Virus record (IMG/VR): IMGVR_UViG_3300031216_000062
Location: 1-25,201 of that record
Source of the DNA: a virus
Direction: 5' to 3' (one strand)
DNA: 25,201 bases
Part shown: piece by piece, positions 16,320 through 24,207 of the stretch
How positions within the stretch are numbered: position 1 is the first letter of the stretch
Layout: every line of letters starts with the position of its first letter
Position numbers and translations under genes: made by a program
Notes under the pieces: model-generated
Told to the model about the DNA's origin: nothing
What the model saw: only the letters and a program-made list of their open reading frames with translations
The model's database searches: none

Positions 16320-16820
16320 CTAGATTGCTGGGTTTCTAAGTTTTTCTGAGTCCTGACTTTTTATCTGATTAATCATGTTTAAAGCGTCTTGATTGTAGAC
16401 TCTCTGCATAATTCTTTCAGATCTTAAGTAAGTTACTACATGTTTATGATTATCATTCTCATAAGGAACTTCTACCCTTTGACCTTTAACTATTTTCATT
16501 TGATATGGTCCAGAACACTCAGCGATTAACTCCCCATCGACATCATTAACTACCATCTTATGAAAATGTGAAGCTGTTGGACATGTTTTGTATTGCGGTT
16601 TCCCATCAGAGTCGACAGTGTGGAACATATGTTTGTGTGGTATTTCTTCCCATATGTATTGATCTTTACGAAATGAAATATTTTTCTTAGTATTTGCTGG
16701 CTCTAACCTGAATAAGTCGTGATCAACTTCGATCTGACCCTTGTATTGCCTACCTGGTTTTTTTACTTTCTTCGTTTTTGTTGGTTTTTTTGATTGGTTT
16801 TCACCGTTTTGGTTTTCCAT
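16320..16820 (-). CDS. Unknown 166-aa His-rich protein, first gene of the late operon
   Basis: The protein begins with a basic disordered stretch (MENQNGENQSKKPTKTKKVK) followed by a folded region with clustered His and Cys: HKHMFH, CPTASHFHK, ECSG, NDNHKH. These could bind metal. No family is recognised. AGGAG lies 5 bases before the ATG and the strong minus-strand promoter at 16857-16885 is about 40 bp upstream, so this is the first product of the structural operon. A transcriptional or packaging regulator is possible but unsupported. Confidence 0.75.
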   Translation of the reverse strand: MENQNGENQSKKPTKTKKVKKPGRQYKGQIEVDHDLFRLEPANTKKNISFRKDQYIWEEIPHKHMFHTVDSDGKPQYKTCPTASHFHKMVVNDVDGELIAECSGPYQMKIVKGQRVEVPYENDNHKHVVTYLRSERIMQRVYNQDALNMINQIKSQDSEKLRNPAI

Positions 16821-16856
16821 CTCTACTCCTAATCGTTTCGGTTGGTTATTTTTAAT

Positions 16857-16885
16857 ATTAGATTACTTGTTTGCCATATTGTCAA
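16857..16885 (-). promoter_or_regulatory. Promoter of the structural operon
   Basis: On the minus strand, a perfect TTGACA (16880-16885), a 17-bp spacer and TCTAAT (16857-16862) make a strong sigma-70-type promoter. Its -35 box overlaps that of the opposite promoter. The half-site TACTTG (16864-16869) lies in the spacer. Confidence 0.75.
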
Positions 16886-16906
16886 TAAACCAAGTATTGT
16901 TTTAAT
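16879..16906 (+). promoter_or_regulatory. Promoter of the rightward early operon
   Basis: TTGTCA (16879-16884), a 16-bp spacer and TTTAAT (16901-16906) match sigma-70 boxes at five of six bases each. The predicted transcript starts near 16913 and reaches the gene at 16942. The half-site CAAGTATT (16891-16898) lies in the spacer, the same element found in the operators at 17756 and 18628. Confidence 0.6.
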
Positions 16907-16941
16907 TATTCAACAAACAAAACACTAACAAGGAAGTAATT

Positions 16942-17181
16942 ATGCAAGACACTGACAAATTAGAATTAGCAATTGATGGAATCAAGGGTGTGGTAAGCGT
17001 TGGCGAAAAGATTATGAAAGATGGAAAAGTTGGCTTTGAAGATTCTATCCACATTCCAGAGCTATACAGAGCATTACAAGAGTGCGTCGAAGCTGGTAAA
17101 GCTTATAAAGAATTAGGCGAGGAAGTTAAAGATATCCAGGCTGATGAGGCGATTAAACTTATCACTAAGATTTTTTCTTAA
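16942..17181 (+). CDS. Unknown 79-aa protein
   Basis: This small acidic, helical protein (MQDTDKLELAIDGIKGVVSV, then IPELYRALQECVEAGKAYKE and EVKDIQADEAIKLITKI) has no transmembrane segment. AAGGAAG lies 5 bases before the ATG. It is the first gene of the rightward operon and is joined to the next by TAATG. Together with the next two genes it forms a three-gene cassette ending in a lipoprotein. A lysis or superinfection role is conceivable from that context, but no motif shows it. Confidence 0.8.
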   Translation: MQDTDKLELAIDGIKGVVSVGEKIMKDGKVGFEDSIHIPELYRALQECVEAGKAYKELGEEVKDIQADEAIKLITKIFS

Positions 17182-20382: not shown

Positions 20383-20416
20383 AAAAAGCCTAGTTGGTCT
20401 AATAACTAGGCTTTTT
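20383..20416 (+). terminator. Strong bidirectional-looking terminator
   Basis: AAAAAGCCTAGTT and AACTAGGCTTTTT are perfect 13-bp arms around an 8-nt loop, ending in five T residues; the A-run on the 5' side would serve the other strand. It separates the recT operon from the replication operon. Confidence 0.9.
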
Positions 20417-20506: not shown

Positions 20507-21268
20507 ATGAAGAATAATCACTGCGAAATTACTATATCTGATCCAGAAAGATGGAACCTAAAATACACTGACAAGAGAAAACATTATATACAATTACATG
20601 GCAATTTCTGGTCTGATAGTGACTTCTTAGCACTATCTAGCGGTCAAAAAGTGATGTTCTTATGGATTCTTAACGCATCCTTAAGGGTAAATAAGCCCTC
20701 TCTTAGCATCTGCTTAGAGTCTGCTAAGGGTATTCTTAAGTGTTCCTTAGATGAAGCTAAGGGACTTCTTAGCGGACTAGAATCCTTTAATATCATAAGC
20801 TTACAGACCAGAGTACGCAAAACAACAAAACCCCAATTAATAGAAGAGAATAGAATAGAAGAGAAGAGAAGAGAAGCAAATGAAAATAAAACAGAATCTA
20901 AAAGCGATTCTGAGCGTGAGCCTTTTGAAGTTGTTGTTGATACTTGGAACAAAGGTGCACCACATTATAATTTTCCAAAAGTTAAAGTTATTAACGCAGC
21001 AAGAAAAAAGGCTATTAAATCAGCGATGAAAGATTTTCCCGATCCTGAGGACTGGAAGAAAATATTTAATGTAGCAGCGACAAAAGGTTTTGAAAGAAAC
21101 GGTGCTGAGCCATTTGTTCCTAACTGGGATTATATTTTTAGAAATAATAATTGGGTTAAGTTCTATGATGAATACGAAATCTTATTTCCAGAAGAAGGCG
21201 CCTTAGGAACAAATGAAAAGGCTGCGGCGCAAGCTGAAGAATACCTCAAGAAAATGGTGGGCATGTAA
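20507..21268 (+). CDS. Replication initiator, lambda O-like
   Basis: This 253-aa protein is placed and built like phage O-type initiators. It has a wing-helix-type N-terminal domain (HYIQLHGNFWSDSDFLALSS, GQKVMFLWILNASLRVNKPS, CSLDEAKGLLSGLESFNIIS), a charged linker encoded by the GAAGA repeats (IEENRIEEKRREANENK), and a C-terminal helical domain (FEVVVDTWNKGAPHYNFPKV, NWDYIFRNNNWVKFYDEYEI) that would load the helicase. AGGTGA lies 7 bases before the ATG. The helicase-like ATPase gene follows directly (TAA-ATG). The DNA between codons 40 and 125 carries an iteron-like array, so the gene probably contains its own origin. Confidence 0.75.
   Translation: MKNNHCEITISDPERWNLKYTDKRKHYIQLHGNFWSDSDFLALSSGQKVMFLWILNASLRVNKPSLSICLESAKGILKCSLDEAKGLLSGLESFNIISLQTRVRKTTKPQLIEENRIEEKRREANENKTESKSDSEREPFEVVVDTWNKGAPHYNFPKVKVINAARKKAIKSAMKDFPDPEDWKKIFNVAATKGFERNGAEPFVPNWDYIFRNNNWVKFYDEYEILFPEEGALGTNEKAAAQAEEYLKKMVGM
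20624..20773 (+). repeat. Phased CTTAG/CTTAA iteron array inside the initiator gene
   Basis: Ten short related motifs (TTCTTAGC, TTCTTAAC, TCCTTAAGGG, TCTTAGC, GCTTAGA, GCTAAGGG twice, TTCTTAAG, TTCCTTAGA, and a final TTCTTAGC) start near 20624, 20667, 20678, 20701, 20712, 20723, 20733, 20743, 20756 and 20766. Most are about 10-11 bp (one helical turn) apart. They encode different residues in different reading phases, so the constraint looks like DNA, not protein. Confidence 0.65.
20843..20877 (+). repeat. Seven tandem purine pentamers (GAAGA/GAATA)
   Basis: Seven 5-bp units, GAAGA GAATA GAATA GAAGA GAAGA GAAGA GAAGC, follow the iteron array by about 70 bp and are almost pure purine. In lambda, an AT-rich, purine-skewed segment follows the O iterons and is the melting site. 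The pentamers also encode the initiator's charged linker. Confidence 0.85.
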
Positions 21269-22120
21269 ATGGAAAAGCTAGAATCAGTATCGAGTGGTTA
21301 TCAAAACCCAGAGCAACGAAAGAAATCAACTAACTCGCTGAGTGAATACGAATTTAAAAGCGACTTAAAAGTTTTTGCAGACCACAATGGATTTAGACGT
21401 GGTGAGTTACATACTATCATCGGGACAAAGGGATCTGGTAAATCAACATGGTCAAAAACAATACTTTCAGAATTGGCTTACCAGGAAAAGGGCGTTTTGC
21501 TTTATGTATCCGAGGAAAGAAAAAATAAATATCTAAGCTCTTTGAATAACTTCTTTGCTTTTTCTAAATTTTCAGAAGCTTCAATCAAGAATTACTTAGA
21601 AAACATAGTTGTGCTAGGCGAGCTTGATAGCAAGATTTCCAAAGAGGAAGAATTATTTTCCGAAATGAGAATGCTTATTGTCGAGGCTAAGCTAGATATA
21701 TTAATTTTTGATAACTTCACAACTTCATTTTTATCAGAGTTACCTATCAACGATCAATCCAGAATCTTAAGAAGATTTAAGTTTTTGGCTGACGATCTGA
21801 ATATCCCAGTAGTTCTTTTTTTTCACACTGGTAAACTGAAAAATACTTCTGGACTCGACGGCGACAATGTTCGGGGATCGGCTACAGCTATAAATATTGG
21901 TTCTTATAATTACGTTATCGCACAGCACAAAGACGGCGTTCAATTAAGAAACTTTATCTTTACAGAAAAAGCAAGATACCACAACAAGGCAAATAAAAAC
22001 ATGTATGAAATAACATATAGCCCTAGTGCTGGAATATTTACAAAGTGCGTTGATTTCTATATCGAATCGTTCCAATGTCTAGTGAGCGGAAAAGACAAGA
22101 GCACAAAGGGTTTTAAATGA
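21269..22120 (+). CDS. RecA/DnaB-type replicative helicase ATPase
   Basis: This 283-aa protein has Walker A GTKGSGKST at residues 52-60, the YVSEE strand end near 80-83 (a Walker-A-prime-like Glu), Walker B LDILIFDN at 142-149, and a sensor-type HTGK at 186-189 followed by DNVRGSATAINIGSYNYVIA. This is the RecA-like core found in DnaB/RepA-type hexameric helicases and related primase-helicases, without a DnaB N-terminal domain or a zinc-binding primase domain. Directly downstream of the O-like initiator, it most likely unwinds DNA for phage replication. A DNA-repair RecA-like ATPase is a less likely alternative. Confidence 0.78.
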   Translation: MEKLESVSSGYQNPEQRKKSTNSLSEYEFKSDLKVFADHNGFRRGELHTIIGTKGSGKSTWSKTILSELAYQEKGVLLYVSEERKNKYLSSLNNFFAFSKFSEASIKNYLENIVVLGELDSKISKEEELFSEMRMLIVEAKLDILIFDNFTTSFLSELPINDQSRILRRFKFLADDLNIPVVLFFHTGKLKNTSGLDGDNVRGSATAINIGSYNYVIAQHKDGVQLRNFIFTEKARYHNKANKNMYEITYSPSAGIFTKCVDFYIESFQCLVSGKDKSTKGFK

Positions 22121-22960: not shown

Positions 22961-23185
22961 ATGAATAATTTTAAGCGTGGAGACATAGTTTATACAAAGA
23001 AAAACCTTGCTAACTATGTTGGTGCTGGTTGTATAGGTATAATTATTAATCAAATGGAAAGGTGCGAAGATACTTTTTTTTGTGACTGGGAATTGAAACA
23101 CTCTAAGCCTAGAAACTTTGTACACGATGGCTACAACTCTTGGCATGTTCCTAGTCACATTTTAGTAAAAATAGGAGAGCTTTAA
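22961..23185 (+). CDS. Unknown 74-aa protein
   Basis: The protein begins MNNFKRGDIVYTKKNLANYV and has a small beta-barrel-like plan (GAGCIGIIINQME, then a Trp- and His-containing loop and HVPSHILVKIGEL), as in small SH3/KOW-like accessory proteins. No family is recognised. AAGG lies upstream and the stop overlaps the next start (TAATG), so it leads an operon of small early proteins. Confidence 0.7.
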   Translation: MNNFKRGDIVYTKKNLANYVGAGCIGIIINQMERCEDTFFCDWELKHSKPRNFVHDGYNSWHVPSHILVKIGEL

Positions 23186-23580
23186 TGAGAAAGTTTAAAA
23201 TAAAATACAGGGATAATATAAAAATCGAATTGGGTGAATATGAAACCGTTCTCATGGTTGATAAAATTGGCGGTAAGCTTTTTTTAAGAAACCCTAAGAA
23301 TGAGATAAAGAGAAGTGCTTGCTATGCAAAGAGAGCAATCTCAGAAGTCTCAGTAGATGGGTTAAGTGGAGTTGTAAACTTTGAAAGTGGTCCAATCTCA
23401 TTTCATCTTGAAGATAGAATTGGCAGCGCAAAGCATAATATGACTTTTTTCTATCATGACGTTGTGGATAACTTATTTGTTGAGAAGTTATCCACAGGGC
23501 ATAAAGTTTTAAACAGTCATCCCTTTGGAGAGAAAGAAGATGGTGCTTGGATGAGTGGTTGTCACTCAGCAATATACTAG
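23185..23580 (+). CDS. Unknown 131-aa protein, paralog A
   Basis: This is the first of two tandem paralogs (with 23821-24207). Both open MRKF/MRKI-K/R and have a beta-rich body. They share the C-terminal signature EKL(S/T)TGHKVL...GEKEDG(A/S)WM, ending in a conserved H-(S/A)-AIY. No known domain is recognised. The coding region contains two perfect DnaA boxes in inverted orientation (23463-23496) that paralog B lacks. AGGAG lies upstream of the ATG, which overlaps the preceding stop. Confidence 0.75.
   Translation: MRKFKIKYRDNIKIELGEYETVLMVDKIGGKLFLRNPKNEIKRSACYAKRAISEVSVDGLSGVVNFESGPISFHLEDRIGSAKHNMTFFYHDVVDNLFVEKLSTGHKVLNSHPFGEKEDGAWMSGCHSAIY
23463..23496 (+). repeat. Inverted pair of DnaA boxes
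   Basis: TGTGGATAACTT (23463-23474) and AAGTTATCCACA (23485-23496) are perfect 12-bp inverted arms around a 10-nt loop. Each arm contains the consensus DnaA box TTATCCACA. It lies inside the 131-aa gene. Confidence 0.8.
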
Positions 23581-23820: not shown

Positions 23821-24207
23821 ATGAGAAAGATAAGGATTAGTACACGTGAAAAGATACGCCTTGAATATGGCAACATGAGGACGACTCTCGGGTTAGTCGG
23901 AAAGAATGGGGAGTACTTTTTAAACTTTCCAGTAAAAGAAAGCTCACGACATACCTCTTATGCAAAAGACGCAAGAGTTCAGATGAGCGATGGAAACAAA
24001 AGCGGCGTTGTCAGTTTTAAAGAACTAAAAGTTAACTTTGAAATAAAGCAAATTGGAGAAAGTCCAAGGCACGATTTTATATTTGACGATGTTGATTTTG
24101 TTTATGCTGAAAAACTTACGACAGGTCACAAGGTATTAGAAAAAAACCACTACGGCGAAAAAGAAGATGGATCATGGATGGGTTGCGGTCACGCAGCTAT
24201 ATATTAA
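23821..24207 (+). CDS. Unknown 128-aa protein, paralog B
   Basis: This is the second copy of the 131-aa family: MRKIRISTREKIRLEYGNMR at the start and YAEKLTTGHKVLEKNHYGEK, then EDGSWMGCGHAAIY at the end. The strong ribosome-binding site GAGAGGGG is 4 bases before the ATG. Conservation is strongest in the last 30 residues, which probably hold the functional site (Lys, His, Glu, Trp, His, Tyr). Function is unknown. Confidence 0.75.
   Translation: MRKIRISTREKIRLEYGNMRTTLGLVGKNGEYFLNFPVKESSRHTSYAKDARVQMSDGNKSGVVSFKELKVNFEIKQIGESPRHDFIFDDVDFVYAEKLTTGHKVLEKNHYGEKEDGSWMGCGHAAIY

Follow-up and report, generated by a model that had tools for sequence, protein, structure and literature searches.

The viral record analyzed here (hereafter the window) is 25.2 kb long, and its gene at positions 20507-21268 lies within the order RecT gene, initiator gene, helicase-like RecA-fold ATPase gene. 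The features of the locus are as follows.

20507..21268, + strand: initiator gene, 253 aa (PHROG profile matches)
20626..20772, + strand: iteron array, ten CTWAR sites in 11-bp register (motif positions and codon-shuffle tests)
20669..20772, + strand: array core; of its ten successive 11-bp slots, nine hold an exact CTWAR (the slot at 20691 is degenerate, ATAAG)
20773..20838, + strand: spacer from iterons to pentamers, with no clear repeat
20839..20877, + strand: purine pentamer tract of AATAG/AAGAG repeats, 35/38 purine, encoding a IEENRIEEKRRE linker
21269..22120, + strand: RecA-fold ATPase gene, 283 aa (phrog_239, E 6.6e-15)

The product of 20507-21268 matched phrog_10469 (E 2.4e-7), phrog_19658 (E 5.6e-7) and the O-like phrog_345 (E 1e-6) at residues 109-219, and phrog_186 at residues 21-136 (E 2e-4), and no significant match was found in Pfam or NCBIfam. 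These weak but consistent PHROG matches suggest an initiator/DnaD-like helicase-loader protein, with a predicted layout of an N-terminal DNA-binding domain, a charged linker and a C-terminal domain of the initiator/helicase-loader type. An AF2 model of the window protein alone had a pLDDT of 37, too low to use, and neither the initiator nor the ATPase from the adjoining gene had a relative in the searched viral contigs, while phage records yielded no useful one for either. The ATPase itself scored below the cut-off with Pfam DnaB_C, and its match to phage primase-helicases is confined to their helicase half (353-604 of the 801 positions in phrog_239); it is possibly a stripped-down helicase without a primase domain of its own, and it is the likely partner recruited at the putative origin described below.

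The array sits 120 to 266 bp inside the coding region of the initiator gene and comprises ten CTWAR sites (8 CTTAR and 2 CTAAG), with CTTAG at 20626, 20702, 20713, 20746 and 20768, CTTAA at 20669, 20680 and 20735, and CTAAG at 20724 and 20757. A preliminary description of this DNA had counted ten CTTAG/CTTAA-type motifs spaced mostly 10-11 bp apart; the count holds, but the class has to be widened to CTWAR to admit the two CTAAG sites, and the spacing is tighter than had been thought, being exactly 11 bp or a multiple thereof except for one 10-bp step (20659 to 20669). Near-matches (CTAGC at 20637, CTTAT at 20659 and ATAAG at 20691) also fall on this grid. As CTWAR is near-palindromic, both motif orientations occur in the array. 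The claim that the motifs occur in different codon phases was borne out (phases 0, 1 and 2 are used 4, 2 and 4 times), and because all three phases occur, amino-acid or helix periodicity cannot explain the sites. The weak phrog_186 match, together with a low-confidence helix pattern, would place the array over the codons of the predicted DNA-binding domain.

We looked at chance under shuffles that keep the protein, 5000 by redrawing codons from codon usage and 5000 by synonymous permutation. The gene contains seven CTWAR pairs 11 bp apart, compared with shuffle means of 0.5 and 0.6 and maxima of 5 and 6, and nine sites on one grid, compared with means of 2.5 and 2.7 and maxima of 7 and 8, and the observed value was reached in 0/5000 shuffles for each measure. 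In a motif-free version of the test, the best 5-mer class had six copies on the 11-bp grid, a value reached in 0/3000 shuffles; the 19 other window genes gave at most four copies, as did other pitches from 7 to 25, such that the initiator gene alone, among the window genes tested, stands out at pitch 11.

The pentamers begin 70 bp beyond the array, in keeping with the gap of about 70 bp reported earlier, and read GAAGA GAATA GAATA GAAGA GAAGA GAAGA GAAGC (20843-20877), so that six of the seven supposed GAAGA/GAATA units are exact fits and the seventh is GAAGC. Their lag-5 identity (33/40, with a shuffle mean of 24.4) was reached in 4/5000 codon shuffles, and hence the pentamers beat the shuffles less strongly than the iteron phasing (0/5000), yet clearly. 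Both the array and the tract are thus present beyond protein-preserving chance. No other 38-bp stretch of the window is as purine-skewed as the tract (35/38), which lies at the 89th percentile of the window for instability calculated from nearest-neighbour energy, a moderate value. It is a candidate unwinding or loading element, and its moderate instability implies that, instead of melting easily, it may serve as a landing site in single-stranded form.

These tests bear on the idea that the protein itself gives rise to both signals as by-products, the 11-bp spacing through leucine-rich amphipathic helices with a periodicity of 3.6 residues (10.8 nt) and the pentamers through an E/K/R-rich linker. 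The stretch does encode predicted leucine-rich helices and an 11-residue near-repeat (CLESAKGILK / SLDEAKGLLS), but shuffles that preserve the protein lose the signal, and a protein by-product would keep the motifs in a single codon phase, with spacings divisible by 3, whereas the sites here shift from phase to phase at a pitch of exactly 11. Moreover, the array lies in the linker in most relatives, and in one pair of related initiators described below (L110 and L425) the amino acids change with the motif while the pitch is kept. We regard this explanation, which is largely refuted by the codon shuffles, the motif-free test and the L110/L425 pair, as extremely improbable.

A scan of viral contigs for four CTWAG at 11 bp found 62 stretches, of which 12 were left after removal of tandem repeats. 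Only three of these 12 non-tandem arrays lie in ORFs of >100 aa, and each of these ORFs is a phage initiator gene, the three representing different families: a DnaD-like loader gene (L135), a gene with a Lin1244-like N domain and C-terminal PHROGs common to the window initiator (L110), and a DUF1376 gene (L077). Most CTWAR 11-bp arrays from viral contigs are simple tandem repeats and usually fall outside ORFs, which raises the question of whether the window array is itself a decayed 11-bp tandem repeat left by replication slippage and without function. We consider this very unlikely, given that the spacers are poorly repeated (lag-11 identity is 0.44 over the window array and 0.68-0.81 in the L135, L110 and L077 arrays), that the motif occurs in both orientations and that non-tandem arrays within ORFs concentrate in initiator genes.

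CAWTG at 11 bp, meant as a negative control motif, instead marked initiator genes, mostly DUF1376-like, which voids it as a control and makes it a second motif at the same 11-bp pitch; the remaining controls are the codon shuffles and the neighbouring ORFs. One of the genes with a CAWTG array, L425, is 34% identical to L110 over most of its length, and the two carry 11-bp arrays in roughly matching positions, close to where the N-terminal domain ends, built of CTWAG in L110 and of CAWTG in L425 (1/1000 in the shuffle test for the latter). In this one pair, pitch and place are kept while letters and amino acids have changed, a pattern that would be expected under selection on DNA-protein contacts. 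Loci from the CAWTG scan (for example L184, L163, L192, L256, L177 and L218) include DUF1376-type and similar phage primosomal genes with 11-bp GCAATGC/GCATTGC arrays that directly precede a low-complexity linker (SESESE, KERKGKE or QPQPQP).

We also surveyed initiator genes picked by protein. Fifty-five replisome-organizer genes were gathered by protein similarity from two seeds, one motif-picked and one protein-picked, and significance was set at ≤1/200 codon shuffles. Lags 11 and 22 (iterons) and 10, 15, 20 and 25 (pentamers) were enriched beyond codon permutation, other lags were close to zero, and the 208 further ORFs from the surveyed loci showed no enrichment at lags 10, 11, 15 or 22. 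We found 11-bp arrays in 23/55 genes and pentamer arrays in 14/55, compared with either in 0/208 other ORFs, and the iterons came before the pentamers in all genes having both (6/6). Counted by protein cluster (n = 41), 17 had 11-bp arrays, 11 had pentamers and 23 had either; a significant array is absent from more than half of the surveyed genes. The iteron motif is mostly GGCAACC but may also be GTATCC, GTTAAAC or GCTTAGC. Three of the genes (L307, L311 and L319) carry CTTAG-type iterons like those of the window, and L311 and L319 pair CTWAG-type iterons with AAGAG pentamers, as the window does. Most relatives have their iterons in the linker, whereas in the window they lie over the predicted DNA-binding-domain codons. 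An hhalign comparison of the window protein with the 55 replisome organizers gave no significant match, just weak PHROG matches being held in common.

DUF1376-type genes carried 11-bp arrays in 40/77 cases (12/28 clusters), compared with 3/287 other ORFs, in a survey in which close relatives are biased because its alignment was built from motif-positive genes; no pentamer signal was found in these 77 genes. Named phages positive at 11 bp are phiRgIBDN1, phiLM21, PfDIW6, SW25, 53801, bIL285 and M102, and no lag-11 signal was found in 45A6, Rac ydaU, RM_A2, ppBeUSDA76-2, RHph_N28_2, TP901-1 or 80alpha. The pattern is thus not universal, as shown by the fact that TP901-1 rep, in which an in-gene origin has been reported, has no 11-bp signal and 80alpha gp20 gives lags 12 and 15. 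For two of these phages the repeats were noted: the phiLM21 gene (Sinorhizobium phage; L267, 1501-2409) carries GTTCAACGGAC at 11-bp intervals with CCAGAAG repeats after it, and the 45A6 gene (Ruegeria phage; L268, 1492-2373) has GAAAACC-type repeats at ~10 bp followed by GAAGA pentamers.

An origin inside an initiator gene is of a known kind, and the layout seen in the window recurs, with other site sequences, in many other phage initiator genes. In Tuc2009 the origin has been reported to lie inside rep (PMC8965321), a placement also given in a note to the Tuc2009 record, and in our shuffle test of this gene lag 11 gave 2/1000, lag 22 0/1000 and the pentamers 0/1000. ORF11 of r1t likewise has 11-bp iterons and then pentamers. 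The window likewise has 11-bp iterons beyond codon constraint inside an initiator gene and a purine-rich pentamer tract 3′ of them. There are also differences: Tuc2009 and r1t have ~4-5 iterons of the GCAACC/GGAACC type, located in the linker, whereas the window has ten CTWAR sites over predicted N-domain codons, and its gap between iterons and pentamers (70 bp) is longer than that of Tuc2009. However, the Tuc2009/r1t homologs L311, L319 and L307 even have CTWAG-type iterons, and the N domain of L311 shares ~50% identity with that of Tuc2009 Rep. By analogy, Tuc2009 rep comes nearest to functional evidence for the putative window origin, although that evidence is indirect.

It is also conceivable that the array is an operator through which the initiator or some other phage regulator represses or times its own gene, the origin lying elsewhere, and phased sites would suit any cooperative DNA-binding protein. 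The array, however, is 120-266 bp inside the coding region, and arrays of this sort are found in initiator genes and seldom in the ORFs around them (0/208 and 3/287). Those of relatives are accompanied by a purine pentamer tract, and the in-gene region of Tuc2009 is a reported origin. An operator without an origin is therefore unlikely, and the two roles are not exclusive, since an origin may also autoregulate.

The preliminary description had called the locus lambda-like, and in lambda, iterons are indeed followed by an AT/purine-rich tract inside initiator gene O (PMC7466680), so that the order was correctly recognized. Lambda O, however, has four annotated 18-bp iterons at 20- to 24-bp pitch and gives no 11-bp or pentamer signal (as a positive control it returned lags 20 and 23, and hence the lag test recovers known iterons). 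A lambda-type origin, with long inverted-repeat iterons of 18-19 bp at ~20- to 24-bp pitch, was rejected for the window, where the pitch is 11. The placement of an origin within, or putatively within, the initiator gene is also shared by the SPP1 oriL origin, shown to lie in gene 38 (PMC6316719), and by 80alpha ORF20, for which it was deduced from failed complementation (PMC5499656) and in which the lags are 12 and 15 rather than 11. RepA_N plasmids, too, have their origin within rep (PMC5703833); their initiator pSK41 Rep combines a winged-helix N domain with a DnaD-like C domain, and four Rep boxes making up the origin lie midway along the gene. AF2 of L311 (41 sequences) gave a confident winged helix within approximately residues 15-80, and a Foldseek search with this model put RepA_N N domains on top, a weak match (E 0.007, Z ~5) tied with many other winged helices. 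The similarity was thus not above the winged-helix background and concerns L311 rather than the window protein, which has no Pfam match. DUF1376 primosomal proteins resemble the window initiator in having 11-bp phased near-palindromic motifs in the gene and differ from it in N domain and motif (GCAATGC). We rejected DUF1376 (PF07120) for the window initiator because it has no match in the Pfam library that detects the domain in L077, and the window genome gave no match either.

Taken together, these sequence comparisons suggest that 20626-20877 is very probably the replication origin of this phage. The codon-shuffle tests and the recurrence of the layout in initiator genes, Tuc2009 rep among them, strongly support the earlier proposal of an origin candidate inside the initiator gene. 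That proposal was to fall if codon shuffles gave as many phased motifs or if homologs kept the amino acids without the DNA motifs; no shuffle did so (0/5000), and L110 and L425 keep the pitch while both amino acids and motif differ. The region is best described as an initiator-embedded origin of Tuc2009/r1t-like rather than lambda-like type, with an iteron sequence of its own, a description that the comparisons support. Specifically, we put a probability of roughly 85% on a theta-type origin in which a phased initiator array, opening of the tract and recruitment of the ATPase are combined. The initiator would bind the near-palindromic CTWAR sites at one per helical turn, a spacing that would align the protomers on one face of the DNA and so build a continuous nucleoprotein array. 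Together with negative supercoiling, this array would open the adjoining purine-rich pentamer tract, and the C-terminal domain of the initiator would then recruit the helicase-like ATPase whose gene comes next.

The part most worth pursuing is the possibility of an 11-bp rule that cuts across families. Phage initiators with unrelated N domains (winged helix, DUF1376 and Lin1244-like) may share an in-gene origin grammar of near-palindromic sites at exactly one per turn, often followed by pentamers, in which the sites are swapped freely (CTWAG, CAWTG, GGCAACC, GTTCAAC and GTATCC) at a constant pitch, which would point to a common protomer-per-turn filament; we give this generalization even odds. 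We found no description of such a rule in the literature searched, which covered few subscription papers. If the rule is true, an origin could be read from an initiator gene by a codon-aware 11-bp phasing test that needs no motif, giving replication origins for many uncultured phages, and relatives with different sites at the same pitch would be natural initiator-site pairs, useful for understanding how winged-helix and DUF1376 domains choose their DNA. A further case is provided by the window, where the array overlies predicted DNA-binding-domain codons, such that the same DNA may both encode the binding domain and be its target.

Several other features of the window were noted. Just upstream of the initiator gene, 20383-20416 contains a perfect 13-bp inverted repeat (AAAAAGCCTAGTT/AACTAGGCTTTTT), a likely two-way terminator. 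The GC skew changes sign at ~16500-17000, ~4 kb from the proposed origin, and the flip coincides with a switch in gene orientation, the structural genes running leftward and the replication genes rightward. No Pfam family was found for the product of 23185-23580 (+ strand), and this gene and its neighbour at 23821-24207 (+ strand), both of ~130 aa, resemble a tandem duplicate (MRKFKIKYRDNIKIELG... and MRKIRISTREKIRLEYG...).
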